Source of the DNA: Proteinivorax hydrogeniformans
Lineage (GTDB): Bacteria > Bacillota > Proteinivoracia > Proteinivoracales > Proteinivoracaceae
Direction: 5' to 3'
NCBI RefSeq assembly: GCF_040515995.1
Contig: NZ_CP159485.1
Location: 1,116,001 to 1,180,000, forward strand
Length of the DNA: 64,000 nt
The translations under genes were made by a program, and so were the position numbers. The notes beneath the pieces were generated by a model. It saw only the letters and a program-made list of their open reading frames with translations, did not search any database and was not told the origin of the DNA. Below are positions 13,820 through 25,631 of the stretch, one piece after another; the first letter of the stretch is position 1; the number at the start of each line of letters is the position of its first letter.

Positions 13820-14931
13820 ATATGCTTTTAGAATGGTTTTTAAGTGGAATTAATGAAGTTTGGTACTACATGACAAATCATGTGCTAACTTGTCTACTGC
13901 CAGCTTTTTTCGTTGCTGGCGGGATTGCTATGTTTTTATCTAAAAATGCAGTGCTTAAGTACTTTGGAGCGCAAACAAAAAAATATATTTCATACACTAT
14001 AGGATCTGTTTCAGGTATTTTATTAGCTGTTTGCTCCTGCACTATAATACCTCTTTTTGCAGGAATCTATAAAAGAGGGGCTGGGTTGGGGCCGGCAATA
14101 ACCTTTCTATATTCAGGTCCTGCGATAAACTTACTTGCCATAACATTGACTTCAACAGTTCTAGGTTGGCAAATGGGGTTAGCTAGGATAATTGGGGCGA
14201 TAATATTTGCCATAATAATTGGGCTTATAATGTCCTTGATTTTTCCGGAAACACAAAAGCAGGATAACAATATGTTTGCGGGAGAAGATGAAGAAAAAAG
14301 CAAAGGTGCAGTTTTAGGCTTTTTTGCTTTGTTAATCGCCATTTTATTATTTGGGACATTGGATTATAGTTTTGTTTCTGAAACTGCGTTAGCTACTGTT
14401 TTTAGCGGCGGTGAGTTAGGTCTTACTAATACGCCCTTTGCTGAGCTTATTGTAAAATATTCTATCTTACTTGTACTTATAGCAGCTGTTTATGTGGTTG
14501 TGAAAAAACACTTTTCTAGCGACGAAAGAGCTGGTTGGATAAGTGAGACATTTTCCTTAATCAAGTTAATTTTTCCAATGTTATTACTAGGAGTTTTTGT
14601 AGCTGGAGTTGTAAAAGTTGCTATACCGGAAGAGGTTATAACAAGGCTGGTAGGAGGAAACTCTATTTCTGCTAACTTTTTAGCAGCTATATTCGGTATG
14701 CTAATGTACTTCTCAACTTTAACTGAGATACCTATTTTAGAAAGTTTTACTGGACTGGGTATGGGGCAGGGCCCGGCGCTATCGTTATTGCTTGCCGGTC
14801 CAGCTCTAAGTCTTCCCAACCTATTATCCATAAGGAATGTTTTAGGAACAAAAAAAACAGCAGTTTATGCTGGATTAGTGGTAGTAATGGCTACTATAGC
14901 AGGGATGTTATTCGGGACTATAGTGAGCTAA
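13816..14931 (+). CDS. DUF318/ArsP-type permease
   Basis: A 371-residue inner membrane permease with about eight hydrophobic segments. The CSCTIIPLFAGIYKRGAGLGPA segment (from about residue 75) is the hallmark of the UPF0718/PF03773 family, which includes the organoarsenical exporter ArsP and other predicted metal permeases; a second related segment with GPALSL lies near the C terminus, giving a two-fold repeat. It is translationally coupled to the ArsR gene and followed by a CxxC thioredoxin-like protein, a common trio. Export of a soft metal(loid) or organo-metal compound is likely but not proven. Confidence 0.85.
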   Translation: MNMLLEWFLSGINEVWYYMTNHVLTCLLPAFFVAGGIAMFLSKNAVLKYFGAQTKKYISYTIGSVSGILLAVCSCTIIPLFAGIYKRGAGLGPAITFLYSGPAINLLAITLTSTVLGWQMGLARIIGAIIFAIIIGLIMSLIFPETQKQDNNMFAGEDEEKSKGAVLGFFALLIAILLFGTLDYSFVSETALATVFSGGELGLTNTPFAELIVKYSILLVLIAAVYVVVKKHFSSDERAGWISETFSLIKLIFPMLLLGVFVAGVVKVAIPEEVITRLVGGNSISANFLAAIFGMLMYFSTLTEIPILESFTGLGMGQGPALSLLLAGPALSLPNLLSIRNVLGTKKTAVYAGLVVVMATIAGMLFGTIVS

Positions 14932-14956
14932 AAAATATAAAGGAGAGTGACTATCT

Positions 14957-15196
14957 ATGAAAATTAAAGTGTTAGGTTCTGGGTGCAAAAACTGTCAAGT
15001 GTTAGCGGAGAGGGCAGAGGAAGCATTAAATGAATTAGGCATTGAAGGAGAAATTATTAAAGTTACAGAGTTAGATGAGATAATTGATCTTGGTGTAATG
15101 ATGACACCAGGTCTTATAGTTAATGACAACATTAAATCTACCGGCAAAGTGCCAAAGACTAAGGAAATTGTCAAGTTTTTACAAGAAGAAAAGTAA
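14957..15196 (+). CDS. Small redox-active disulfide (thioredoxin-like) protein
   Basis: A 79-residue protein of the redox-active disulfide protein 2 type (TIGR00412-like). The active site is GCKNC at about residues 9-13 after a beta strand, and MMTPGLIVN contains the cis-proline. Length and pattern match the family. It ends the arsR-permease operon, with a terminator directly after. It may reduce or deliver the permease substrate; that is inferred from the recurring gene neighbourhood. Confidence 0.85.
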   Translation: MKIKVLGSGCKNCQVLAERAEEALNELGIEGEIIKVTELDEIIDLGVMMTPGLIVNDNIKSTGKVPKTKEIVKFLQEEK

Positions 15197-15204
15197 AGTA
15201 TCGA

Positions 15205-15233
15205 GACTGTGGGTTTATCCCACAGTCTTTTTT
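15205..15233 (+). terminator. Terminator after the arsR-permease operon
   Basis: Nine-bp stem GACTGTGGG/CCCACAGTC, 5-base loop, six T. Confidence 0.92.
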
Positions 15234-15289
15234 AATAAGTATAATTTTCTAAAACATTTAATACATTAATTAAAAGGAGGTGCTAACTT

Positions 15290-16036
15290 ATGAATATTCA
15301 AAGAATGTTTTCAGTTTTACTACTTGCTTTGATTGCTACGAGCCTGCTATATAATTTTTCAAAAGAAGGAGCTGAAATGGTAACTAATCAACAAAGGCAG
15401 CTTCCCATTTATAGAGTAGGAACAGATAAACCACAGGTTGCGATCTCCTTTGATGCTGCTTGGGGCGCTGATTATACAGAGGAGATATTAGATGTTTTAG
15501 ATGAGTATGAGATAAAAACCACCTTTTTTCTAGTAGGATTTTGGGTTGACGAATATCCTGAGATGGTAAAAGAAATACATAAAAGAGGACATGAAATTGG
15601 TAACCACTCCACAACTCATCCTGAAATGAGCAAACTAACATCAGAGCAAGTTAAAGAGGAACTACTTATAACAGAGGAAAAAATATTTGAGTTAACTGGT
15701 CAAAAAGCAACAGTGTTTCGACCTCCGTTCGGCGACTACAATGACAATTTAATTAACTCAGCAAAAGAAGTTGGCTATCATACCATACAATGGGATGTCG
15801 ATTCATTAGATTGGAAAGAAAGAGGAGTTATGGACATTGTAGAGAGAATAAAGGCAAAATCTAGCGAGGGATCTATTATTTTGTTTCATAACAACGGCAA
15901 GTACACAGCAGAAGCATTACCATTAGTTTTAGATTATTTAACAAAGGAAAAAAGTTTGGATGTTGTTCCGATTTCTGAGCTAATCTATAAACAAAATTAT
16001 CACATCGATCACCAGGGTGAACAAAATTTAAACTAG
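15290..16036 (+). CDS. Polysaccharide deacetylase, PdaB-like
   Basis: A NodB-fold carbohydrate esterase of 248 residues with an N-terminal membrane/signal segment (about 7-23). Motif 1 is SFDAAWG at 53-59: the catalytic-base Asp is kept (D55) but the usual second Asp is Ala (A56), as in PdaB-type sporulation proteins. H106-x3-H110 forms the metal site with D55 or nearby ligands, and RPPFGD is motif 3. PdaB proteins act on spore peptidoglycan late in sporulation. AAGGAGGTG precedes the ATG. The next gene follows after 14 bases. Confidence 0.85.
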   Translation: MNIQRMFSVLLLALIATSLLYNFSKEGAEMVTNQQRQLPIYRVGTDKPQVAISFDAAWGADYTEEILDVLDEYEIKTTFFLVGFWVDEYPEMVKEIHKRGHEIGNHSTTHPEMSKLTSEQVKEELLITEEKIFELTGQKATVFRPPFGDYNDNLINSAKEVGYHTIQWDVDSLDWKERGVMDIVERIKAKSSEGSIILFHNNGKYTAEALPLVLDYLTKEKSLDVVPISELIYKQNYHIDHQGEQNLN

Positions 16037-16050
16037 CGGGGGGATAAAAA

Positions 16051-16674
16051 ATGGGGAGTCAGATGAAAAAGTTAATTTTATTAACGGTAACTGCTGTAAT
16101 AAGTACATATGTAATGTCTAACTCCATGCTAGCACTTATTTCTCAATACGGCGACCCCGATACAAAGGCTGCAGGAGTTGTTTCCGAAATAACTGAAGAA
16201 GAAAATAAAGGGGAAGAAAACAAAATAGGGGAAAATGGACAAGTTAATCAGCAATCATTGGACAAAGTTTATATCATCCAAAATGGAGTTTTTAAGGAAA
16301 AACAAGGGGCGGAAAATCTAAAAACAGCTATAAATTATCATGGTTTCCCAGCTTTTATAGTTGAACAAGACGAAGAGTACAGGGTTTTTTCAAATGTGCA
16401 CTCAGAAGAAAAGATACTAAGGACTATCTTGGAACAGCAAAGAGAAAAAGGGCTGGACAACTACCTTGTAAATCAAAAACTAAATAAACACAATAAACAA
16501 GATGCAAATTATCTCTTTAAGATGATAAGTTCGGGGCATTCAACCATGGAAGCTCCTAGCGAGCCTATAAAAGAGATTATCTATAATTTTAATAAATGGA
16601 AGGAAACCGAGGACCTAAGTTATAAAAATCTTTATCATGGCAAGATCTACGAAATGTTTTTTTTAACAAAATAA
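16051..16674 (+). CDS. Secreted/membrane protein with SPOR-like domain
   Basis: A 207-residue protein. Residues 5-30 form an N-terminal signal anchor; residues 45-70 are a charged linker. The segment from about 72 (KVYIIQNGVFKEKQGAENL) to 120 (YRVFSNVHSEEKI) follows the pattern of a SPOR peptidoglycan-binding domain (V-Q-x-G-x-F, later Y-R-V). The C-terminal 80 residues are helical and unrecognised. GGGGGG precedes the ATG at 16051. With the deacetylase upstream, a role in cell wall or spore coat layers is plausible but inferred. Confidence 0.65.
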   Translation: MGSQMKKLILLTVTAVISTYVMSNSMLALISQYGDPDTKAAGVVSEITEEENKGEENKIGENGQVNQQSLDKVYIIQNGVFKEKQGAENLKTAINYHGFPAFIVEQDEEYRVFSNVHSEEKILRTILEQQREKGLDNYLVNQKLNKHNKQDANYLFKMISSGHSTMEAPSEPIKEIIYNFNKWKETEDLSYKNLYHGKIYEMFFLTK

Positions 16675-16677
16675 TGA

Positions 16678-16706
16678 TTGATATATGCAACCTTGAATGT
16701 TATAAT
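16678..16706 (+). promoter_or_regulatory. Promoter of the hydrogenase-type operon
   Basis: TTGATA at 16678-16683 and TATAAT at 16701-16706 with 17 bases between. It starts only 4 bases after the upstream stop codon. The -10 overlaps the Rex-like box listed next. Confidence 0.75.
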
Positions 16707-16714
16707 TTTAACAA
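16697..16714. promoter_or_regulatory. Candidate Rex-binding site
   Basis: The 18-mer ATGTTAT-AATT-TTAACAA has a perfect right half and a 5/7 left half of the clostridial Rex consensus TTGTTAA-N4-TTAACAA. It covers the -10. Rex binding here would repress the operon at low NADH/NAD+ ratio. Confidence 0.6.
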
Positions 16715-16756
16715 ACTAACAAACTGCAAAGGGTTGCATTTTTTTTAAGTTTTATA

Positions 16757-16770
16757 GTGAAATGTTTCAC
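16757..16770. promoter_or_regulatory. GTGAAA-TG-TTTCAC palindrome
   Basis: A perfect 6-bp inverted repeat with a 2-base centre, directly before the AGGAGGAG ribosome site (16771-16778) of the first DRTGG gene. It may be an operator or an mRNA hairpin. Another inverted pair, ATGCAACC (16685-16692) and GGTTGCAT (16732-16739, then a T run), flanks the Rex-like box. Confidence 0.4.
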
Positions 16771-16783
16771 AGGAGGAGAATTT

Positions 16784-17137
16784 ATGAATTTAAAAAAAGT
16801 TAGTCAGCTTGTAGGAGGAAAAGTAATTGCTGGTGAAGAATTCCTTAATAGAGAAATAAAAGCTGCTTACGGTGCAGATCTTTTAAGTGACGTCTTAGCT
16901 TTTACGGAAAGTGGCACCTTGCTTTTAACTGGACTAGTAAATAGCCAGGTAGTTAGGACTGCGGAAATGTTAGATTTGTGTGGAATTGTCGTTGTTAGAG
17001 GCAAAGAAGTAGAAGGTGATACATTAAAATTAGCTAAAGAGTGTAATATGACTATTATAGTAACTGATAAAACGATGTTCGAAAGCTGTGGAATTCTTTT
17101 TCATCACGGGGTTAAGCCTTGTGGTTTTACAAAATAG
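16784..17137 (+). CDS. DRTGG-domain protein (first of two)
   Basis: A 117-residue protein of the DRTGG type, a small domain also found in phosphotransacetylases and CBS proteins and thought to bind a ligand or nucleotide. It begins MNLKKVSQLVGGKVIAGEE and has GADLLSDVLAF, matching the family's N-terminal pattern, and alternating hydrophobic strands. An in-frame GTG at 16757 is rejected since the ribosome site 16771-16778 points to the ATG at 16784. It opens the operon of hydrogenase-type genes; a paralogue is at 18843. The function in such clusters is not known. Confidence 0.8.
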   Translation: MNLKKVSQLVGGKVIAGEEFLNREIKAAYGADLLSDVLAFTESGTLLLTGLVNSQVVRTAEMLDLCGIVVVRGKEVEGDTLKLAKECNMTIIVTDKTMFESCGILFHHGVKPCGFTK

Positions 17138-17152
17138 CGATGGAGAGTGGCC

Positions 17153-17572
17153 ATGGAGACATTAAAGGTTGTTTGGGAAGTTGAAAAGATGGATTTTAGT
17201 CGAGCTGGAGAGGGCTCAAGTAAGATAAAAAAAATGCTGCATCAATTTAGCATTCGCCCTGAAATTATGCGTAGGGTTGCCATAATCAGCTATGAGTCTG
17301 AAATGAACCTAGTTATCCACTCTTATGGTGGAACGATACAGGGAGAAGTGTTTCCTGACAAAGTAGTTGTTACGGCAAAAGATAATGGCCCGGGTATAAA
17401 AAACCTCAATCAAGCTATGAAGGCAGGTTTTTCAACTGCGCCATTTGAGGTTAGAGAAATGGGCTTTGGAGCTGGTATGGGCCTTCCTAACATAAAAAGA
17501 AGTGCAGACAACTTAGATATTAGCTCGACAGAAGAAGGCACAAATCTAGTAGCTACAGTCTATTTAAAATAG
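17153..17572 (+). CDS. Anti-sigma-factor-like ATP-binding protein (RsbW family)
   Basis: A 139-residue GHKL ATPase domain without histidine-phosphorelay parts, as in RsbW/SpoIIAB. The N box is around ESEMNLVIHSYGG, the G1 box is DNGPGI, and the G2 box is GFGAGMGLPNIKR. Such proteins are serine kinases or switch proteins binding sigma or anti-sigma partners. The ATG at 17153 is preferred over a GTG at 17147 by ribosome-site spacing. It lies between a DRTGG gene and the hydrogenase-like sensor, suggesting a signalling role for the operon; the target is unknown. Confidence 0.85.
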   Translation: METLKVVWEVEKMDFSRAGEGSSKIKKMLHQFSIRPEIMRRVAIISYESEMNLVIHSYGGTIQGEVFPDKVVVTAKDNGPGIKNLNQAMKAGFSTAPFEVREMGFGAGMGLPNIKRSADNLDISSTEEGTNLVATVYLK

Positions 17573-17594
17573 TTTTTAATAAGGAGGGAGAGGC

Positions 17595-18815
17595 ATGGCT
17601 GATTATCATTCCGTAAGACTTAGGGCAGGTTTATGTACTGGGTGTACTGCTTGCGTTACTTCCTGTCCTACTGAAGCGGTAAGAGTGTATGGACAAAAAG
17701 CCGAAATTTTAGCCTCAAGATGTACTGATTGTGGAGCTTGTCTTAAGGCGTGTCCAAACCATGCTAAAACCGGGAAAGTTGATAGCATTAAAGATTTGGA
17801 TCGATACAAATATAAAATTGCATTGCCTGACCCCGCTATATTTGGACAATTTGCTCCTGAGGTAGAGCCGCAGAGGGTGCTGGGGAGTTTTCTTTCGTTA
17901 GGATTTGACGAAGTTTTCGATGTTGCATTAGCGTGTGACTTAGTTTCTGAGAAAATAAAAGAAAAGTTAAAAGAAAGTAAGTCACCTCTAATATCAGCCT
18001 CATGTCCAGCGGTTATTCGCATGATTCAAGCCTTATATCCTGACCTTATAAAAAACTTAGTTCCTGTAGAGGCCCCTTTAGAAGTTGCTGGACAATTAGC
18101 AAGACAGCAAGCTGAAAAAAGAGGCCTTTTATCTAAAGATATAGGGATTTTCTATATATCGCCTTGTCCTGCTAAAGTAACTGCTGCTAAAAATCCAGTT
18201 GCTAGAAATAAATCCAGCGTAAGCGAGGTTCTTTCTATAGTGGATATATATGGCAATATCCTAAAGTTTGCTAATATGAAAAACCAAAAAACTTTAGAGC
18301 TAAAAGCCACAGGCAAAGGTTATGGTTGGGCCAGAGCCGGAGGAGAATCAATAGCAGTAGGAACAACTAATAATGTGGTTGTTGACGGAATAGAGCATGT
18401 AACTAAAGTACTTAGTGAAATAGAAATTGGAAAACTGACAAATGTTGATTATATAGAATGCTGGGCCTGTGTAGGAGGTTGTGTTGGTGGACCATTGGTG
18501 GTGGAAAACCCGTTTATCGCAACAGTTAAAATAAGAAAAAAAGCTGAAAAGCTTAATAAACAACAGAAGATAAACTTAAGTTGTGTAGATCAGTCGATTT
18601 TTGACTGGGACGATGGTATTAAACCAAGACAGGTTATGTCTTTAGATAACAACATGACAGTAGCTATAAGCAAAGGGAAAAAGCTACAAGAAGTACTAGA
18701 AAAGCTTCCTGGATATGATTGTGGAGCTTGTGGTGCTCCTACATGTAGCGCTCATGCTGAGGATTATATCCAAGGCACTATTAAAGACACAAGGTGTGTT
18801 TTTAAAAACGACTAG
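17595..18815 (+). CDS. [FeFe]-hydrogenase-like iron-sulfur protein, probable sensory/non-catalytic form
   Basis: A 406-residue protein. Residues 14-24 (C14-x2-C17-x2-C20-x3-C24) and the following RCTDCGACLKACP are two ferredoxin clusters. The hydrogenase H-cluster domain follows: L1 is SASCPAV with ligand C137 but Ser at the usual proton-relay cysteine (TSCCP in catalytic enzymes); L2 is SPCPAK with C191; L3 is ECWACVGGC with C292 and C296. The C terminus has a DCGACGAPTC four-cysteine Fe-S domain (PF04060-like). The loss of the relay cysteine is typical of putative sensory hydrogenases (HydS-like). It is set among signalling genes, which supports a sensor role; catalysis is not excluded. Confidence 0.85.
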   Translation: MADYHSVRLRAGLCTGCTACVTSCPTEAVRVYGQKAEILASRCTDCGACLKACPNHAKTGKVDSIKDLDRYKYKIALPDPAIFGQFAPEVEPQRVLGSFLSLGFDEVFDVALACDLVSEKIKEKLKESKSPLISASCPAVIRMIQALYPDLIKNLVPVEAPLEVAGQLARQQAEKRGLLSKDIGIFYISPCPAKVTAAKNPVARNKSSVSEVLSIVDIYGNILKFANMKNQKTLELKATGKGYGWARAGGESIAVGTTNNVVVDGIEHVTKVLSEIEIGKLTNVDYIECWACVGGCVGGPLVVENPFIATVKIRKKAEKLNKQQKINLSCVDQSIFDWDDGIKPRQVMSLDNNMTVAISKGKKLQEVLEKLPGYDCGACGAPTCSAHAEDYIQGTIKDTRCVFKND

Positions 18816-18842
18816 CTTTTATTAGAAAGGCAAGGTGATAAC

Positions 18843-19187
18843 ATGAAGTTAAAAGATGTGGCCAAAAAGCTTAATTTAAAAGAACTAAATTCAACAAACC
18901 TTGAAATAGAAGTAAAAGGTGGGCTATCAACTGACTTACTTAGTTTGGTTCTTGCTAATAGTAGCCCGGGCAGCATTTGGGTAACTCACCAAAACCATCC
19001 TAACATTATTGCTGTTTCTTTACTTGCGGAGTTATCAGCTATTATTGTTATCGGTAAAGTTGAAAAAGAAACTGTAGATATTGCAAAGGAAAAAGGTGTC
19101 AACCTGTTTTTTACTAACAAACCATTGTTTGACACAGTTGGGTGTTTATACTCCCTAGGCATAAAAGCTGAAGATGCCACTGTATAA
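18843..19187 (+). CDS. DRTGG-domain protein (second)
   Basis: A 114-residue paralogue of the protein at 16784, with the same start pattern (MKLKDVAKKLNLKEL), a GGLSTDLLSLVL segment, and a matching C-terminal VNLFFTNKPLFDTVGCLYSLGI. Two different copies flank the hydrogenase-like gene and might form a heterodimer; this is speculation. An AAGGTGAT ribosome site precedes the ATG. It overlaps the PHP gene by 14 bases. Confidence 0.8.
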   Translation: MKLKDVAKKLNLKELNSTNLEIEVKGGLSTDLLSLVLANSSPGSIWVTHQNHPNIIAVSLLAELSAIIVIGKVEKETVDIAKEKGVNLFFTNKPLFDTVGCLYSLGIKAEDATV

Positions 19188-19923
19188 GGGAGATATGCAT
19201 ATTCATAGTGTATTATCACCGTGCGCAGACCTATCGATGGGTCCCAAAAATATAATCAGCGCAGCAAAAGCAAAGGGTGTAAACATAATTGGCGTTACCG
19301 ATCATAACTCAGCAAAAAATTTAGCTGCTTTTGAAAAATTAGCTAAACTGGAAAGAAGTATCACTTTGCTATATGGTATTGAAGTGGAGACAAAGGAAGA
19401 GATTCATGTGCTTTGTTACTTTGAAACCTTAGATAAGGTTTCAGCATTTGATAATATTATTTATGACTCTATCAAAGACGTTAAGAATAACCCTGACATT
19501 TTTGGTGATCAGGTTATTATAGATAGCGACGAAAATATTATTGGGTATGAAGAAAAACTTTTGCTACAGCGTTGTGAGTTAACTATTCAACAACTAGCTG
19601 ATAAAGTAAATAAATTTGATGGCATGATTATTCCTGCTCATATAGATAGGCCTAGTAACGGTATTTTGACCAATCTTGGGTTTGTGCCTGAAAACATATA
19701 CTTTGATGCTTTTGAAATAAGTCCAAATACCAAAACCGAAGATGTACTAAAGACTCATCCATATTTGAAGAATAAAAACCTCATAAGAAGTTCTGATGCC
19801 CATTTGTTAACAGAGGTGGGGAAGGCGGTAATAAACTTTCAAATGCCTCATCCAACCTTTGAAAATATAAAGTTTGCCTTTTTAAATAGACTTGGCAGGA
19901 GGTGGTGGGTCTCAAGTGAATGA
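19174..19923 (+). CDS. PHP-domain metal-dependent phosphoesterase
   Basis: A 249-residue PHP-fold protein. Metal ligands appear in DMHIHSVLSPC (near residues 7-17), GVTDHN (about 41-46), the EVETKEEIHVLCYF strand, PAHIDRP (about 155-161) and SSDAHLL near 208-214. This is the TrpH-like group that hydrolyses nucleotide or sugar phosphates. The start overlaps the DRTGG gene, and the end overlaps the possible GTG start of the NuoE-like gene. The substrate is unknown. In a signalling operon it could remove a phosphorylated or nucleotide signal. Confidence 0.85.
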   Translation: MPLYKGDMHIHSVLSPCADLSMGPKNIISAAKAKGVNIIGVTDHNSAKNLAAFEKLAKLERSITLLYGIEVETKEEIHVLCYFETLDKVSAFDNIIYDSIKDVKNNPDIFGDQVIIDSDENIIGYEEKLLLQRCELTIQQLADKVNKFDGMIIPAHIDRPSNGILTNLGFVPENIYFDAFEISPNTKTEDVLKTHPYLKNKNLIRSSDAHLLTEVGKAVINFQMPHPTFENIKFAFLNRLGRRWWVSSE

Positions 19924-19966
19924 TAAAAACAAAAGCAATTTGCGAAACACGAAAGGAGCGAAAAAA

Positions 19967-20467
19967 ATGGAGAAATTAAACAAATGCTGTTGTGGAAATG
20001 ACAACCAACAGGATGAAAAGAAAGTTGAGCTTGAAAAACTATTTGCAGAGTACAAAGGGAAAAAAGGTGCATTAATCCCTGTACTGCAAAAAGCTCAAGA
20101 TATTTACGGATATTTGCCTAAAGAAGTTATTGCAGATATAGCAGATGGACTAAACTTACCTGTTAGCCAAGTTTATGGAGTTTGTACTTTTTATTCTCAA
20201 TTCCATCTAAACCCTAGAGGTGAAAATATTATTCGGGTTTGCATGGGTACTGCTTGTCATGTTAGAGGAGCAGATAAAGTTTTAGAAAGACTTCAAGCAG
20301 ACCTAGGTGTTGAACCTGGTGAAACCACAGAAGATCTAAAGTTCACTTTAGAGTCAGTTGCATGTATAGGTGCCTGTGGTTTGGCTCCAGTTATTATGAT
20401 TAATGATAATACTCACGGCAGGTTAGATGCCGATACAGTTTCAGAAGTCTTAGACAAATATAAATAA
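19967..20467 (+). CDS. nuoE: NuoE-like [2Fe-2S] subunit of a soluble NADH module (HydC type)
   Basis: A 166-residue thioredoxin-like [2Fe-2S] protein of the 24-kDa complex I family. Ligands are the first pair in CMGTACHVRG and the second pair in CIGACGLAP. It transfers electrons to or from the NuoF-like flavoprotein three genes on. The ATG at 19967 follows AAAGGAG at 19952-19958; an alternative GTG at 19916, preceded by AGGAGGTGG, would add 17 residues. In electron-bifurcating hydrogenases this is subunit HydC, but the matching HydA gene is not found here. Confidence 0.9.
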   Translation: MEKLNKCCCGNDNQQDEKKVELEKLFAEYKGKKGALIPVLQKAQDIYGYLPKEVIADIADGLNLPVSQVYGVCTFYSQFHLNPRGENIIRVCMGTACHVRGADKVLERLQADLGVEPGETTEDLKFTLESVACIGACGLAPVIMINDNTHGRLDADTVSEVLDKYK

Positions 20468-20469
20468 TT

Positions 20470-21018
20470 ATGAAGGATTTATCTCACGTTATTTTAGATT
20501 TAGTTCAAAACTCTATATCTGCAGATGCAGATCAGGTTTCCATTGAGGTTTTTAAATCTAAGAAACAAAACCTGTTATCTGTTTGTATAACTGACAATGG
20601 AAAAGGTATGAATGAGCAGGAAGTCAAAAAATCAACAGACCCTTATTATACTACGCGCACTACTAGGGACATAGGTTTGGGATTGCCTTTAATTAAGATG
20701 ATGGCTAAGCAAGCTGATGGAGACTTTAAAATAAATTCCAAGCCACAAAATGGCACTTGTGTATATTTTTCATTTGCTCTAGAGCATTGGGATTGCCCTC
20801 CGGTGGGCGATTTAGCGGCTACCTTTATCTCCTTTTTCGTTCTGCAACAGGATATTACAATATCTTTAAAGGTGGATAATGGTAGCGAAAGCTTTGAATT
20901 AAGCAATCAAGAAATATACGATGAACTTTCCGCTGACCAGATTACTAAGCAGTGGGTGTTAGATTGGGTAAAAGAGCTCATAGAGGACAATATTATGAAA
21001 ATTTTAAGGGAGGGATAG
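20470..21018 (+). CDS. GHKL ATP-binding protein (histidine-kinase-like ATPase domain)
   Basis: A 182-residue stand-alone HATPase. The N box is in LSHVILDLVQNSISADA, the G1 box is TDNGKGM, a DPYYTTRTTRDIGLGLPLIK stretch combines F and G2 boxes, and NGTCVYF is G3. It has no dimerisation/histidine domain. It belongs to a group regularly found between NuoE-like and NuoF-like genes in hydrogenase operons. The C-terminal 70 residues are an added domain I do not recognise. The role is probably regulatory, by kinase or protein-switch action; no partner is evident. Confidence 0.85.
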   Translation: MKDLSHVILDLVQNSISADADQVSIEVFKSKKQNLLSVCITDNGKGMNEQEVKKSTDPYYTTRTTRDIGLGLPLIKMMAKQADGDFKINSKPQNGTCVYFSFALEHWDCPPVGDLAATFISFFVLQQDITISLKVDNGSESFELSNQEIYDELSADQITKQWVLDWVKELIEDNIMKILREG

Positions 21019-21020
21019 TT

Positions 21021-21395
21021 TTGAGTAAGAAAATAAAATCTTTAGAGGATTTAAGAAAGCTAAGACAAGAAAAGGAAAAGTTAACCTCTCCTAGAGAAGG
21101 CGATAACATCCAGGTTATCATTGGAATGGGTACTTGTGGTATCGCTGCAGGGGCTAGGGATGTAATGCTGACCTTACTAGATGAGATTAACAGACATAAT
21201 TTGAAGGTAAACGTTACTCAAACTGGTTGTATAGGTATGTGTGAAAAGGAGCCACTTTTAGACGTAGTAGTTCCAGGTGAAGGTAGAATAACATATGGAA
21301 AAGTTACACAAGACGTAGTTAAACAAATAGTATCTCAACATTTAGCTAACGGACAAATTGTAAAGCAAAATGTTGTAGGAAAAATAGAAGAGTAA
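21021..21395 (+). CDS. Thioredoxin-like [2Fe-2S] ferredoxin
   Basis: A 124-residue protein with the NuoE-type [2Fe-2S] fold in minimal form. The ligand Cys are C46 in GMGTCGIAAGA and the pair in TGCIGMCEKEP. The open frame continues to 20952, but AGGGAGGG (21006-21013) sets the start at the TTG at 21021, three bases after the ATPase stop. It resembles the N-terminal domain of the NuoF-like protein downstream and probably exchanges electrons with it. Confidence 0.85.
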   Translation: MSKKIKSLEDLRKLRQEKEKLTSPREGDNIQVIIGMGTCGIAAGARDVMLTLLDEINRHNLKVNVTQTGCIGMCEKEPLLDVVVPGEGRITYGKVTQDVVKQIVSQHLANGQIVKQNVVGKIEE

Positions 21396-21407
21396 GGGGG
21401 TAAAAAG

Positions 21408-23201
21408 ATGGAGCTTTATAGAGGTCATATACTAATATGTTCTGGGACAGGTTGTATATCTTCTGGAGCAAATAGCATAAAAGCGGCTTTTGAAAAACAA
21501 CTAGCTGAAAAAGACTTAAGTGGTGAGTTTAAACTGATTGAGACAGGGTGTCATGGTTTTTGCGAGATGGGGCCGATAGCTATAGTTTACCCAGAAGGCA
21601 CTTTTTATTGCCGATTAGAAAACGAAGATGTGGAAACTATTGTGGAAGAGCATCTTATCAAGGGAAGGTTAGTTAAAGAAAAGCTTTATAACCCTCCTCA
21701 TAGCGAGGATAAAATTCCTTCTTATAAAGAAATTGATTTTTATAAAAAACAACACCGTATCGCTCTTAGAAACTGTGGTTATGTAAACCCTGAGGATATT
21801 GATGAGTATATCGTAAAAGGTGGCTACGAAGCCTTGGGTAAAGTGCTTTCAGAAATGTCGCCAAGTCAGGCTATTGAGGAAATGAAAAAATCCGGATTAA
21901 GAGGTAGGGGAGGCGGTGGATTCCCTACTGGACTGAAATGGGAGTTTGCTAGCAAAACCGAAAGTGATAAAAAATATATGATTTGTAACGCTGACGAAGG
22001 CGACCCTGGAGCTTTTATGGATAGAAGTATACTTGAGGGAGATCCGCATAGTATCATTGAGGGGATGGTTATTGGTGGCTATGCGACAGGTGCTGATGAA
22101 GGCTATGTTTATATCCGAGCAGAATATCCTCTAGCAATCAACAGATTAAAAACTGCACTAGCACAAGCAAAAGAGTATGGCATGTTGGGAGAGAATATTT
22201 TAGGAACAGGCTTTAATTTTGAACTTCATATAAAAGAAGGTGCTGGAGCATTTGTCTGTGGAGAGGAAACAGCGTTAATGCACTCAATTGAAGGAAAGCG
22301 AGGTATGCCTAGACCTAGACCACCATTCCCTGCAGTTAAAGGTTTATGGGGAAAACCTTCAAACATAAACAATGTAGAGACCTTTGCTAATGTTCCTGTT
22401 ATATTTGAAAAAGGTGCTGATTGGTTTGCCAGCTTAGGTACAGAGAAGAGTAAAGGAACTAAAGTTTTTGCTTTAACCGGAAAAATTAACAACACTGGCC
22501 TAGCAGAAGTGCCTATGGGTATCTCAGTTAGAGAGATTATCTATGACATCGGTGGGGGCATAACTAATGATAAAAAGTTTAAAGCTGTTCAAATTGGAGG
22601 ACCTTCAGGTGGATGCTTACCAGAAGACTTAATAGATCTACCTGTAGACTATGACTCATTAATAGAAGCAGGAGCGATGATGGGCTCAGGTGGGCTTGTG
22701 GTTATGGATGAAGAGACCTGCATGGTTGACTTAGCTAGATTTTTCCTAAACTTTACTCAAGACGAATCATGTGGTAAATGCACTCCATGTCGCGAGGGTA
22801 CAAAACGAATGTTAGAAATCCTTGAGAGAATCGTCGACGGCAAAGGGCAAGATGGTGATATCGAACTACTAGAAGAGCTCGGAGAAACTATTAAGACAAC
22901 ATCCCTTTGTGGACTTGGTCAAACAGCCCCTAACCCAGTGCTAAGTACATTAAAATACTTTAGAGATGAATACGAAGCTCATATTCATGATGGAAGGTGT
23001 CCTGCTGGTGCTTGCTCTGCGTTAGCAAAATATGTGATTGACCAAGAAAAGTGTAAAAAATGTACGCTATGTACAAAGGTTTGTCCAGTGAGTGCTATAG
23101 AAGGAAAACCAAAAGAAGTGCATAAAATCGACCCAAATGTGTGTACTGCCTGTGGTGTTTGTGTCGACACATGTAAGTTTGATGCTATAAAAAAGGGTTA
23201 G
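21408..23201 (+). CDS. nuoF: NuoF-like NADH-binding flavoprotein subunit (HydB type)
   Basis: A 597-residue flavin-iron-sulfur protein. Domains in order: an N-terminal [2Fe-2S] thioredoxin-like domain (about 8-90, CSGTGC and GCHGFCEMGP); the NADH/FMN domain with GLRGRGGGGFPTG and CNADEGDPGAF; an SLBB region (GGPSGGC); the N3-type 4Fe-4S site ESCGKCTPCREGT; and a C-terminal 2[4Fe-4S] ferredoxin (CKKCTLCTKVCP and CTACGVCVDTC). This is the full HydB/HndC layout. It should pass electrons between NAD(H) and ferredoxin or a catalytic partner. The hydA gene normally next is absent. Confidence 0.95.
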   Translation: MELYRGHILICSGTGCISSGANSIKAAFEKQLAEKDLSGEFKLIETGCHGFCEMGPIAIVYPEGTFYCRLENEDVETIVEEHLIKGRLVKEKLYNPPHSEDKIPSYKEIDFYKKQHRIALRNCGYVNPEDIDEYIVKGGYEALGKVLSEMSPSQAIEEMKKSGLRGRGGGGFPTGLKWEFASKTESDKKYMICNADEGDPGAFMDRSILEGDPHSIIEGMVIGGYATGADEGYVYIRAEYPLAINRLKTALAQAKEYGMLGENILGTGFNFELHIKEGAGAFVCGEETALMHSIEGKRGMPRPRPPFPAVKGLWGKPSNINNVETFANVPVIFEKGADWFASLGTEKSKGTKVFALTGKINNTGLAEVPMGISVREIIYDIGGGITNDKKFKAVQIGGPSGGCLPEDLIDLPVDYDSLIEAGAMMGSGGLVVMDEETCMVDLARFFLNFTQDESCGKCTPCREGTKRMLEILERIVDGKGQDGDIELLEELGETIKTTSLCGLGQTAPNPVLSTLKYFRDEYEAHIHDGRCPAGACSALAKYVIDQEKCKKCTLCTKVCPVSAIEGKPKEVHKIDPNVCTACGVCVDTCKFDAIKKG

Positions 23202-23213
23202 ATAAAGGAGTAA

Positions 23214-23273
23214 ATGTCAAAAAAGACAATACTTAAAGCTGATTTAGCGAGCTGTTTAGCAACTTTTCTTTAG
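23214..23273 (+). CDS. Possible 19-residue peptide
   Basis: ATG at 23214 follows AAAGGAG (23204-23210), 13 bases after the nuoF-type stop. The reading MSKKTILKADLASCLATFL ends with TAG. It could be a leader peptide, a trace of a lost downstream gene, or chance. The ribosome site lies in a repeat (GGAGTAAA, 23207-23214) that can pair with TTTACTCC at 23285-23292. No family is recognised. Confidence 0.25.
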   Translation: MSKKTILKADLASCLATFL

Positions 23274-23339
23274 ATTAAGGGCTTTTTACTCCAAAGAAAA
23301 ATATAATTTTTCCAATAGGTAACATTTTTTTCTCATACA

Positions 23340-23374
23340 AAGGAAACCCTAATTTTAAATGGGTTTCCTTTTTT
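23340..23374 (+). terminator. Terminator of the hydrogenase-type operon
   Basis: Perfect 10-bp stem AAGGAAACCC/GGGTTTCCTT, 11-base loop, T run. Confidence 0.9.
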
Positions 23375-23412
23375 AATCCATAATTTTTTTAATAATGTTT
23401 CTTTTATAGAGG

Positions 23413-23430
23413 TTGTGTTTTTATTTACAA
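23413..23430. promoter_or_regulatory. Candidate Rex-binding site of rex
   Basis: TTGTGTTTTTATTTACAA is 18 bases long with TTGT and ACAA at its ends, as in Rex operators (TTGTTAA-N4-TTAACAA); the inner bases match less well. It overlaps the putative -35 of rex, which suggests autoregulation. Confidence 0.55.
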
Positions 23431-23453
23431 ACTAAAAAAAGTTATGGTAATAT
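23424..23453 (+). promoter_or_regulatory. Candidate promoter of rex
   Basis: TTTACA at 23424-23429 and TAATAT at 23448-23453 with 18 bases between. Confidence 0.5.
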
Positions 23454-23508
23454 AAAAGTAGTTTTTATTTAATAATAGTTTAATTGTTTTTATTAAGGAG
23501 GTAGTAAA

Positions 23509-24129
23509 GTGGATAAGCACCAAAGAATTCCAGATGTAGTAATAAAGAGATTGCCAATTTACCTAAGGTATTTAGATCAACTTTCTTCTATGGATATCGA
23601 AACCGTTTCATCACAACAAATGGGTGATGATTTACACTTAAACCCGGCCCAAATAAGAAAAGATTTATCTATCTTCGGAGATTTTGGAGTTAAAGGTATG
23701 GGTTATCGAGTTTCCGACCTGTCTGAAAAGCTCAGGAGTATTTTGGGACTAGATAAAGAGATTTCTATTATTTTAGTAGGGGTAGGTAACCTAGGGGCTG
23801 CATTATGTCAGTACAATAGATATCAAAGTCCCACAACCAAAATTGTAGGTTTATTTGATGGACATCCCTCTAAAGTAGATAAAACTATCGGTAACATGAA
23901 AGTTAAGCCGATGGAAGACATGCAGGAATTTGTAAAAGAAAATGGAGTCAAAATGGGCATTATTACTGTTCCAGCTCAAGCTGCCCAAAAGGTAGCAGAT
24001 CAAATGATAGCCGCTGGTATAACAGTAATATTAAATTTTGCTCCTGCATTATTGAATGTTCCAGAAGAAGTTAAAGTACAAAACTCTGATGTTACAACAG
24101 AATTACAAGCATTGTCTTATTATCTATAA
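23509..24129 (+). CDS. rex: Redox-sensing transcriptional repressor Rex
   Basis: A 206-residue NADH/NAD+ sensor. The N-terminal winged helix (about 1-75) contains SSQQMGDDLHLNPAQIRKDLS, the family's recognition region; the C-terminal Rossmann domain starts at VGVGNLGAAL (about 87-96) and ends in the swapped helix. High NADH releases Rex from DNA. Start is GTG at 23509 after AAGGAGG (23495-23501). It sits between a NuoEF-type operon and aspA-rnf, and a Rex-like box precedes both itself and the upstream operon, which fits control of NADH-consuming pathways. Confidence 0.96.
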   Translation: MDKHQRIPDVVIKRLPIYLRYLDQLSSMDIETVSSQQMGDDLHLNPAQIRKDLSIFGDFGVKGMGYRVSDLSEKLRSILGLDKEISIILVGVGNLGAALCQYNRYQSPTTKIVGLFDGHPSKVDKTIGNMKVKPMEDMQEFVKENGVKMGIITVPAQAAQKVADQMIAAGITVILNFAPALLNVPEEVKVQNSDVTTELQALSYYL

Positions 24130-24140
24130 TATTAATATTG

Positions 24141-24162
24141 CCCTTTTATAAAAGGTTTTTTT
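24141..24162 (+). terminator. Terminator after rex
   Basis: CCTTTTATAAAAGG palindrome followed by seven T. The stem is short and AT-rich, so it is weaker than most here. Confidence 0.65.
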
Positions 24163-24218
24163 CACTTAATATAGAATATAGCACTTGGACAAACAATAAT
24201 TAGGGGAGGAATTAAATT

Positions 24219-25631
24219 ATGGCTTCCGTACGAAAAGAGAAAGACCTATTAGGGGAAAAAGAGATTAGCAACGAGTTGTACTATGGTATTCAAACTAAAA
24301 GGGCATTGGAGAACTTTCCGATTACAGGATATGCTCCACACCCTACGTTGATACATGCTTTAGCAGTTGTTAAAAAGTCATCAGCAGAAGCTAATATGGA
24401 AGTTGGAAGACTTAACAAGAAGATTGGGCAGGCAATATGTAAGGCATGTGAAGAAATAATACAAGGAGACTTACACCAGTATTTCGTTGTCGATGCTATT
24501 CAAGGTGGAGCAGGTACTTCTATGAATATGAATGCAAATGAAGTGATTGCAAACAGGGCTATTGAACTTTTAGGTGGCAAAAAAGGTGAATATATAAAAG
24601 TTTCACCGAACACCCATGTAAACATGGCGCAATCTACCAACGATGCGTTTCCTACCGCTATTAACATAGCAGCGTTAAAGTTAGCGCAAGGTGTATTAAC
24701 ATCTTTAAACGGTCTTATTGATGCACTAAAAGGCAAAGAAGCTGAATTTGACGAAGTGCTAAAAATGGGAAGAACTCATCTTCAAGATGCTGTTCCTATT
24801 AGATTAGGCCAGGAGTTTGGTGCTTACGCTAAGGTGCTTTCTAGAGATGTCAAGCGTATAGAAAAGTCTTTAGAAGACCTTAAGGAAATAAATATGGGGG
24901 CTACAGCGGTAGGAACCGGCTTAAATGCAGACCCTAAGTATATTGAGGTTGTGGTGGATAGGGTTAATGAAAACAGTGGGATTGAATTTACAACCGCTTC
25001 TAACCTTGTTGATTCTACGCAGAACACTGATGCGTTTGTAGCAGTTTCTGCAGCGCTTAAAATTTGTGCCGTAAACCTATCGAAGATGGCAAATGACTTA
25101 AGGCTATTGTCATCAGGGCCTAAATGTGGCCTAAATGAGATAAACTTGCCTCCTGTTCAACCAGGATCATCAATCATGCCAGGTAAAGTAAACCCTGTAA
25201 TGGCAGAGGTTGTAAACCAGGTTGCTTTCCAAATAATGGGCAATGATCATACTATCTGTTTGGCTTCGGAAGCAGGACAATTGGAGTTAAATGTTATGGA
25301 ACCAGTGCTTACATTTAATTTGCTTCAATCTTTGGATATACTAAGAAATGTAACCACAGTTTTTGCCGATAAATGCATTAAAGGCATAACCGTTAACGAA
25401 GAAAGGTGTCGCCAGCTTGTAGATGAAAGCATAGGTATTGTAACTGCGATTAATCCGCATGTAGGATATGAAACTGCATCTACTGTCGCCCAAGAGGCCA
25501 TTAAAACAGGCAGACCAATAAAAGAAATTGTTCTTGAAAGAGGAATTTTGACAGAAGAAGAACTTGAAAAAATCCTTAATCCTTATGATATGACAAGGCC
25601 TGGTATTTCTGGATCAGACCTGTTAAAATAA
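24219..25631 (+). CDS. aspA: Aspartate ammonia-lyase
   Basis: Converts L-aspartate to fumarate and ammonia. The 470-residue length fits aspartase. The superfamily signature SSIMPGKVNPV is near residues 320-330, with TNDAFPTA and GRTHLQDAVP as the other two conserved regions. An N-terminal LYYGIQTKRALENF segment favours aspartase over class II fumarase, which has a different sequence here. GGGGAGGA precedes the ATG. It is a single-gene unit between two terminators. It would feed fumarate into an amino-acid-fermenting metabolism. Confidence 0.9.
   Translation: MASVRKEKDLLGEKEISNELYYGIQTKRALENFPITGYAPHPTLIHALAVVKKSSAEANMEVGRLNKKIGQAICKACEEIIQGDLHQYFVVDAIQGGAGTSMNMNANEVIANRAIELLGGKKGEYIKVSPNTHVNMAQSTNDAFPTAINIAALKLAQGVLTSLNGLIDALKGKEAEFDEVLKMGRTHLQDAVPIRLGQEFGAYAKVLSRDVKRIEKSLEDLKEINMGATAVGTGLNADPKYIEVVVDRVNENSGIEFTTASNLVDSTQNTDAFVAVSAALKICAVNLSKMANDLRLLSSGPKCGLNEINLPPVQPGSSIMPGKVNPVMAEVVNQVAFQIMGNDHTICLASEAGQLELNVMEPVLTFNLLQSLDILRNVTTVFADKCIKGITVNEERCRQLVDESIGIVTAINPHVGYETASTVAQEAIKTGRPIKEIVLERGILTEEELEKILNPYDMTRPGISGSDLLK

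Follow-up and report, generated by a model that had tools for sequence, protein, structure and literature searches.

A conserved gene neighborhood around a probable sensory [FeFe]-hydrogenase, with candidate partners among its small regulatory proteins

What are two small stand-alone ATPases, two DRTGG-type proteins, and a PHP phosphoesterase doing together in a row of genes that also codes for electron-transfer proteins? The question is raised by positions 16784 to 21018 of a 64,000-nucleotide stretch of the Proteinivorax hydrogeniformans genome (contig NZ_CP159485.1, positions 1,116,001 to 1,180,000), referred to here as the window. A first-pass annotation of this DNA had described the five genes as a signaling module in one operon, and all five lie on one strand exactly where it had placed them. 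It had also described redox proteins alternating with them, which is true of the NuoE/HydC-type subunit. The other protein that it took for a plain redox protein is in fact likely a sensor: the open reading frame (ORF) at 17595-18815 is probably a group D (M2e) “putative sensory” [FeFe]-hydrogenase, here called HydS. The gene order around it is common to many anaerobic bacteria, and the small regulatory proteins are good candidates for its partners. A signaling module built around a sensory group D-type HydS, whose members would sense, phosphorylate, and dephosphorylate, is the reading favored here, though tentatively, at slightly less than an even chance. It draws on what can be read from the sequences themselves: which genes are present and in what order, their shared inheritance and fusions, the conservation of active-site residues, and the signaling outputs tied to related H-domain proteins of this genome. 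The genes are close-packed, with an overlap of 14 bases between DR2 and PHP, and are as follows (aa, amino acids).

16784..17137, + strand: DR1, a stand-alone DRTGG/PucR-N-like protein, 117 aa (Pfam, predicted fold)
17147..17572, + strand: ABW, an RsbW/SpoIIAB-type GHKL ATPase, 141 aa (Pfam, NCBIfam, profile match to solved SpoIIAB)
17595..18815, + strand: HydS, a probable group D (M2e)-type [FeFe]-hydrogenase, 406 aa (two 4Fe-4S motifs, H-domain, C-terminal Cx2Cx4Cx16C)
18843..19187, + strand: DR2, a second DRTGG-like protein, 114 aa (profile cross-matches, D-x-x-S motif in common with DR1)
19174..19923, + strand: PHP phosphoesterase, 249 aa (Pfam, conserved metal-ligand positions)
20470..21018, + strand: HKE, a stand-alone GHKL ATPase with a C-terminal domain and a D-x3-N N-box, 182 aa (Pfam, model, conservation)

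The hydrogenase and its neighbors

The name HydS was given because the features of the ORF match the descriptions of TamHydS, the enzyme of Thermoanaerobacter mathranii, and of group D (M2e) in PMC8163306 (papers are cited here for the parts of their text that were available). Pfam finds in it two N-terminal 4Fe-4S motifs, an iron-hydrogenase H-domain, a C-terminal FeS domain, and no PAS domain. The ferredoxin-type cysteines (C14/17/20/24 and C43/46/49/53), the H-cluster cysteines (C137, C191, C292, and C296), and the C-terminal Cx2Cx4Cx16C (C376, C379, C384, and C401) are kept in 48/48 aligned sequences, the window included. The proton-relay Cys299 (CpI numbering) is replaced by Ser136 in the window, and this position holds A in 28, S in 18, T in 2, and H in 1 of 49 aligned proteins. 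Likewise, Met353 has become Ser189, with T in 29 and S in 20 of the 49. E251 (46/49) and E288 (49/49) can be compared with E252 and E289, the alternative proton-path residues of TamHydS, by number only, with a small offset. Orthologs were set by a score gap and not by a tree: 50 of 149 genomes score at least 184 bits and the rest at most 117, the second pieces of two broken genes apart. Stretches with a broken HydS (L048, L091, and L092; L numbers denote loci) were left out of the conservation counts. In TamHydS, H2 alters the secondary structure and the C-terminal cluster is not reduced by H2, according to the available text (PMC13104023); therefore, a conformational relay is likelier than a redox relay.

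Four further H-domain proteins of the same genome are tied to signaling outputs. Two of them (751 and 755 aa; L094 7308-9563 and L095 7951-10218, both on the - strand) carry a C-terminal FeS domain, a sigma-54 activator, and HTH_8, and from this domain make-up they are apparent hydrogenase-based transcription factors. Among the titles listed in the literature search, none was plainly about H-domain/sigma-54 activator transcription factors. A third protein (630 aa; L094 5232-7124, - strand) joins the H-domain to an MCP signaling domain, with no FeS domain matched, and the fourth, which has an FeS domain, adjoins a SpoIIE-type phosphatase. An H-domain fused to an MCP chemotaxis signaling domain is also seen in L072 (7134-9044, - strand), just past ABW-HydS. 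The window HydS, which has no fused output, would have its gene neighbors as its output.

The two DRTGG proteins of the first-pass annotation are not equally secure. DR1 passes the Pfam DRTGG family PF07085 (28.3 bits vs a cut-off of 25.2), and its PucR score of 28.9 bits is under that family’s cut-off of 33.5. Its predicted fold (pLDDT 96.5) is nearest to the solved DRTGG proteins 2ioj (TM 0.83) and 3l2b/3l31 (0.71-0.74), followed by the HPr kinase N-domain (TM 0.63-0.69), with pseudomurein ligase and LpxD among those that come after. DR2 has no PF07085 match at E<=0.1, and Pfam and NCBIfam give it no convincing family; it is DRTGG-like by cross-matches to the DR1 profile, along with a weak resemblance, by profile, to the HPr kinase N-domain (E 0.0011) and to the DRTGG domain of the CBS-pyrophosphatase (E 0.013). 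The motif D[LIMVF]2S is present somewhere in 110/110 DR1 and 109/111 DR2 sequences, a few loci being counted twice. An HPr kinase gene, whose N-domain is one of the genome’s four DRTGG matches, lies a few kb ahead of the window start (L096 3657-4583) and is probably unrelated to the module.

Pfam supports the HATPase domain in both ABW and HKE, as well as the PHP domain in the PHP protein. The label “RsbW-type” fits ABW, which scores 27.7 bits with PF02518 (cut-off 26.4) and 26.8 with PF13581, just under the cut-off of 27.4, and whose nearest solved relative is SpoIIAB (43 bits; RsbW 23). Residues E50, N54, D79, G81, and G83 are found in 47/47 sequences, and the E-x3-N and ATP boxes are kept. 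RsbT was not preferred over RsbW, as there is no RsbT-labeled chain among the PDB matches to E 10. For HKE, the label “histidine-kinase-like” is right only as to the shared GHKL fold because there is no HisKA domain and the N-box is D-x3-N (39/39). Pfam finds only HATPase-type domains in it, with no HisKA/DHp phospho-acceptor domain, and a histidine-kinase reading was rejected on these grounds. About 100 columns of the HKE model (pLDDT 89.6) align to histidine kinase catalytic domains. In the PHP protein, H9, H11, D43, H44, E70, and H78 are kept in 44/44 sequences, H156 and H210 in 43/44, and D208 in 42/44; these are metal-ligand positions, and EndoQ is among the solved relatives.

Inheritance, fusions, and the adjoining electron-transfer genes

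The genome survey covered 149 relatives. Gene order was followed in 51 stretches (50 from 49 relatives plus the window) and in 80 named loci, the best 80 of at least 416 confirmed stretches; the two sets overlap in part (L061/L105 and L068/L164 are the same contigs) and are not wholly independent. Family counts come from positional sets and cleaner profiles since the early iterated profiles mixed Fe-S proteins and contaminated the RnfC, HydD, and HKE labels. ABW, PHP, and HKE each separate by score from their wider families.

ABW occurs in 50/50 genomes with HydS and in 7/99 without it. HydS is present in 50 genomes, ABW in 57 (50 shared with HydS), PHP in 50 (48 shared), HKE in 56 (47 shared), and DR1 in 53 (46 shared), and the five are found together in 43. 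Some DR protein is present in 50/50 HydS genomes, DR2 not being counted separately. Fisher p-values for this co-occurrence ignore phylogeny, so a contrast within families is fairer. Across 11 families of mixed HydS status, ABW, PHP, HKE, and DR1 are each present in 15/15 genomes with HydS, while the 16 genomes without it have ABW once, PHP once, HKE four times, and DR1 twice. Independent distribution, which the first-pass annotation had named as a sign against its module, was looked for and not found: gains and losses of the genes mostly coincide, even inside single families. Its idea of a coherent module beside electron-transfer enzymes is borne out by a gene set that is linked across relatives.

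The core DR-ABW-HydS-DR-PHP is complete, fusions counted, in 43/51 stretches and 63/80 named loci, and several others are cut by contig ends. Named loci with at least 1.6 kb upstream (n=68) have ABW in 64 and a DR in 63; those with at least 3.5 kb downstream (n=59) have DR2 in 49, PHP in 48, HKE in 31, and NuoE on the same strand in 29. Among the matches listed, locus titles are mainly Clostridia and other Bacillota, with Spirochaetales, Spirochaetaceae, Armatimonadetes, Syntrophorhabdaceae, and Atribacteria also among the labels. One locus with the module, L121, belongs to the Thermoanaerobacterium species T. butyriciformans.

Natural fusions join DR1 to ABW (L052, L057, L100, and L106), HydS to DR2 (L050, L051, and L108), PHP to HKE (L079, L081, L082, and L161), and, from reading its sequence, HKE to HydD in L073. 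Some of these loci share a genus or family, so the independent fusion events are fewer than the loci. Pairwise distances over 27 loci, left after four were excluded by hand and those without any of eight families were dropped, give correlations that partly reflect shared descent: 0.85 for HydS-ABW, 0.80 for HydS-PHP, 0.77 for PHP-DR2, and 0.75 for HydS-DR2, compared to 0.57 for HydS with NuoE, 0.64 for HydS with NuoF, and 0.86 for the control pair NuoE-NuoF. As candidate partners of HydS, ABW would rank first because it is in 50/50 genomes and has the highest rate correlation, DR2 next because it is fused to HydS, and then PHP, with HKE less sure.

In two genomes (loci L184 and L186, the second genome 85% complete), DR1, ABW, DR2, PHP, and HKE are present and HydS was not found among the sequences; their ABW bears two CBS domains, which looks like an exchange of one sensor for another. 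A second locus of the first genome (L185), with DR1 and ABW only, looks like CBS-ABW by its sequence, and another genome (L088) has both CBS-ABW and HydS. The CBS pair in these four loci is a possible adenine-nucleotide input. In L183 (9165-10927), fragments of ABW, HydS, and PHP lie among intact DR1, DR2, and HKE, an apparent decay of the sensor-kinase-phosphatase part. One genome has DR1-DR2-PHP-HKE in L187 and ABW-HydS elsewhere, in L072.

The remaining features around the module are the genes of an NADH-linked unit, Rex, and candidate control sites ahead of DR1.

16678..16706, + strand: promoter-like site TTGATA-17-TATAAT with TG before the -10, upstream of DR1 (consensus match only)
16697..16714, + strand: Rex-operator-like palindrome overlapping the -10 (2 mismatches to TTGTTAA-N4-TTAACAA)
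16755..16772, + strand: second Rex-operator-like palindrome, TAGTGAAATGTTTCACAG, directly ahead of the DR1 start
19967..20467, + strand: NuoE/HydC-type [2Fe-2S] subunit (Pfam, NCBIfam; start set at an internal ATG, scanned from 19961)
21018..21395, + strand: HydD-type small thioredoxin-like ferredoxin subunit with a GTG start (Pfam, NCBIfam)
21408..23201, + strand: NuoF/HydB-type NADH/FMN subunit with extra 4Fe-4S motifs, 597 aa (Pfam, NCBIfam)
23509..24129, + strand: Rex, an NADH/NAD-responsive repressor (Pfam, NCBIfam)

Both the HydC/NuoE and the HydB/NuoF subunits of a trimeric HydABC operon are present in the window. Neither HydA nor FdhA lies between NuoF and Rex (23201-23509), so the catalytic subunit HydA of such an operon is missing here. 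Of the 51 stretches, 41 have NuoF, followed by HydA in 26, by an FdhA-like ORF in 10, and by neither in 4 including the window, with 1 cut off; no NuoF is seen in the other 10, of which some are truncated at contig ends. The FdhA-like ORFs are similar to the piece in the same-genus locus L043 and have no H-domain; L043 alone was examined further, and its FdhA-type ORF, between NuoF and Rex, has one in-frame TGA in the first 894 codons. Since NuoF is followed by HydA or FdhA across the stretches, the module goes with the NuoEF unit whichever enzyme is served. The NuoE-HKE-HydD-NuoF of the window is thus without a neighboring catalytic subunit, unlike that of L043, and L098 holds a separate NuoE-HydD-NuoF-hydrogenase set without the module.

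The site at 16678..16706 is the best promoter-like match (11/12) in 14900-24300, a region not enriched in such sites (24 found vs 28.1 in shuffles). Matches to the Rex operator consensus TTGTTAA-N4-TTAACAA are not in excess over the whole window (22 vs 17.3 expected). Only the regions ahead of DR1, taken as a set, are enriched: a Rex-like site with at most 2 mismatches occurs in 10/108 distinct regions, with 98/108 lacking one, whereas random stretches from the same loci average 0.86 (max 3); the shuffle expectation, which allows for the DR1 upstream regions being richer in A+T than their loci, is 0.70 over 109 regions. L043 has at its gene start 18 bases identical to the palindrome at 16755..16772.

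A proposed mechanism and its rivals

In the proposed mechanism, HydS would respond to H2 or electron pressure via a conformational change, and its state would be passed to ABW, the RsbW/SpoIIAB-type kinase, both directly and through the two DRTGG adaptors. The near-invariant Ser of the D-x-x-S motif in the DRTGG proteins is the candidate phospho-acceptor; alternatively, an adenine nucleotide bound by these proteins could be a second cue. The PHP protein would reverse the mark, and HKE would relay or gate the outcome on the NADH-linked NuoEF complex, be it hydrogenase or formate dehydrogenase. The net effect would probably be post-translational control of electron flow, while Rex would control the expression of the operon. 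In its most specific form, the proposal has a hydrogenase receptor acting on an RsbW-type Ser kinase with DRTGG (not STAS) substrates and a PHP phosphatase, a receptor slot that takes either HydS for H2/redox or a CBS pair for adenine nucleotides, and a post-translational throttle on the NADH-linked hydrogenase or formate dehydrogenase. So fully specified, it is unlikely.

Several observations weigh against a HydS-centered signaling module, besides the shared descent behind the distance correlations. ABW is far under the NCBIfam cut-offs (spIIAB 38.5 of 135 bits, RsbW 16.4 of 145) and may bind ATP without being a kinase. The window HydS (406 aa vs an ortholog median of 449) has no counterpart of the ~45-residue tail of most orthologs. 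The DR1 distances correlate with those of HydS at 0.66 and of NuoF at 0.71, which does not discriminate between them. Some loci have HydS without any partner nearby (L102 and L177) or with a DR alone (L099 and L101), and others have partners without HydS: DR1-ABW-DR2-HKE near Rex and Rnf in L179 and L180 (less completely seen in L181 and L191), DR1-ABW alone in L182, and DR2 with HKE beside NuoEF in L188 and L189. HKE, together with NuoE, is on the strand opposite the module in 7/80 named loci, and it is not seen in 6/51 stretches and 31/80 named loci, some cut by contig ends and many with a complete core.

HKE is the loosest member of the module, and a first alternative, itself doubtful, builds on this: HKE and DR2 would be an ATP-driven chaperone or gate for the assembly or activity of NuoE-HydD-NuoF, with no phosphorylation or sensing at that end. 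HKE lies downstream of the module with NuoE adjoining in 33/51 stretches and 31/80 named loci, and it lies with NuoE in the 7 loci of opposite strand. The pairing of DR2 and HKE in L188 and L189 without the rest of the module, the HKE-HydD fusion in L073, and the HKE model, which gives longer and looser alignments with MutL, GyrB, ParE, and GRP94 (~170-200 columns including gaps, TM ~0.5) than with histidine kinases, all suit such a gate. However, HKE stays with the module where no NuoE adjoins in 12/51 stretches and 11/80 named loci (four of these fused to PHP), and its distances correlate better with the module (0.68-0.75) than with NuoE (0.51) or NuoF (0.59). HKE is also restricted to 56/149 genomes, while the HydS query finds a match at E<=0.001 in 143/149, in some of them perhaps via ferredoxin motifs only. 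Moreover, a gate would leave HydS, ABW, and PHP unexplained.

Another possibility, an improbable one, is that ABW is an anti-sigma factor or SpoIIAB-like kinase in a transcriptional partner switch, with its sigma or STAS partner encoded elsewhere and released by HydS. Among named and solved families, SpoIIAB and RsbW come closest to ABW, and the HydS-like proteins of this genome carry sigma-54 activator domains or adjoin SpoIIE. In L111 and L126, ABW-HydS is found apart from the rest, beside a histidine kinase and a DNA-binding response regulator, with a CheW protein as well in L111. Ten proteins of the window, between 16784 and 24126, were scanned, and, in line with the first-pass annotation, none of them is a sigma factor, STAS protein, or response regulator; nor was a sigma or STAS protein found among the neighbor ORFs scanned elsewhere, some neighbor ORFs being outside the scan. 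ABW is linked best to HydS and the DRTGG proteins, which argues against this reading.

A very improbable reading is that HydS senses no H2 and instead assists the NADH-linked complex in catalysis or electron transfer, with the ATPases and PHP doing no more than tuning it. This would account for the operon common to HydS and NuoEF, and TamHydS does catalyze H+/H2 interconversion, although slowly (PMC8163306). The proton-relay Cys, however, is A, S, T, or H in 49/49 aligned sequences, the 10 stretches mentioned above show no NuoF (some cut by contig ends), and related H-domain proteins are fused to pure signaling outputs. Finally, genes of one operon can be inherited together while functionally uncoupled, but such hitch-hiking is hardly credible given the co-loss within families, the four kinds of gene fusion, and a core DR1-ABW-HydS-DR2-PHP kept intact where NuoE-HydD-NuoF is divergent (L079, L081, L082, L135, L144, L146, L149, L152, L161, L162, and L165).

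Comparison with known systems

A description of this module was not found in the titles and abstract openings of the literature searched, most subscription papers lying outside its coverage. If the module does signal from HydS, it would reveal the way in which H2 and formate metabolism is matched to H2 pressure in many fermenters and acetogens, and a kinase-DRTGG pairing would be added to the known partner-switching systems. In the most specific form of the proposal, the kinase-adaptor-phosphatase core would read gas/redox state or energy charge, depending on the receptor. The module consists of five small proteins and a hydrogenase of a type already purified, so its steps are testable.

TamHydS (group D/M2e) has the domain plan of HydS, no relay Cys, Ser/Thr in place of Met353, the C-terminal Cx2Cx4Cx16C, and no PAS (PMC8163306, PMC10407848, PMC13104023), and its locus is likewise upstream of an NADH-linked complex, with a histidine-kinase-like ATPase flanking (PMC8163306). 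The literature available treats the hydrogenase itself and names one flanking ATPase and an AraC regulator (PMC8163306), whereas the present analysis adds the DRTGG and PHP partners, a second ATPase, the fusions, and the CBS swap. The window protein also differs in having no C-terminal tail and no HydA gene downstream. Nowhere in its available main text does the 2026 TamHydS paper use the word kinase, operon, DRTGG, or PHP, and it closes by calling the identification of group D interaction partners critical (PMC13104023). Candidates for these partners can be named and ranked from the operon, the fusions, and the co-loss pattern.

The hyd operon of Acetobacterium woodii, hydC-E-D-B-A1, has in HydE the equivalent of HKE in place and type, and the same is true of HydD (PMC3315566, PMC10472528). 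It differs in being described, in the text available, as five genes with no upstream HydS module, with HydE left as “assembly or signalling” (PMC3315566, PMC10472528). In Clostridium thermocellum, the group D enzyme Cthe_0335 is upstream of Cthe_0338-0342, near a trimeric hydrogenase with a “histidine kinase” gene, Cthe_0339 (PMC3561251, PMC3990059). Group D enzymes have been termed sensory because they are encoded close to kinases and bifurcating hydrogenases (PMC3561251). Cthe_0335 too is called sensory by proximity, and the genes in between are not analyzed in the available parts of those papers (PMC3561251, PMC3990059).

Among the partners, ABW shares with the partner-switching kinases SpoIIAB and RsbW the HATPase_c_2-type fold and E-x3-N. 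It differs from them in an operon without a STAS or sigma partner, in its lid, REMGFGAGMGLPN, and in its link to DRTGG proteins and HydS or CBS. The CBS-DRTGG pyrophosphatase of C. perfringens (3l2b/3l31), which is under AMP/Ap4A control according to the title of a paper cited in PMC13039410, has the DRTGG fold and likewise brings CBS and DRTGG together. In the module, however, the DRTGG proteins are stand-alone, and the CBS pair, where present, is on the ATPase.

Group C HydS proteins are linked to SpoIIE. Those with PAS (PMC8924675) or MCP (PMC9431212) outputs resemble the window protein as H-domain sensors with an output fused or adjoining, and such proteins are present in this genome as well. 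The difference is that group D has no fused output, and separate neighbors would serve in its place.

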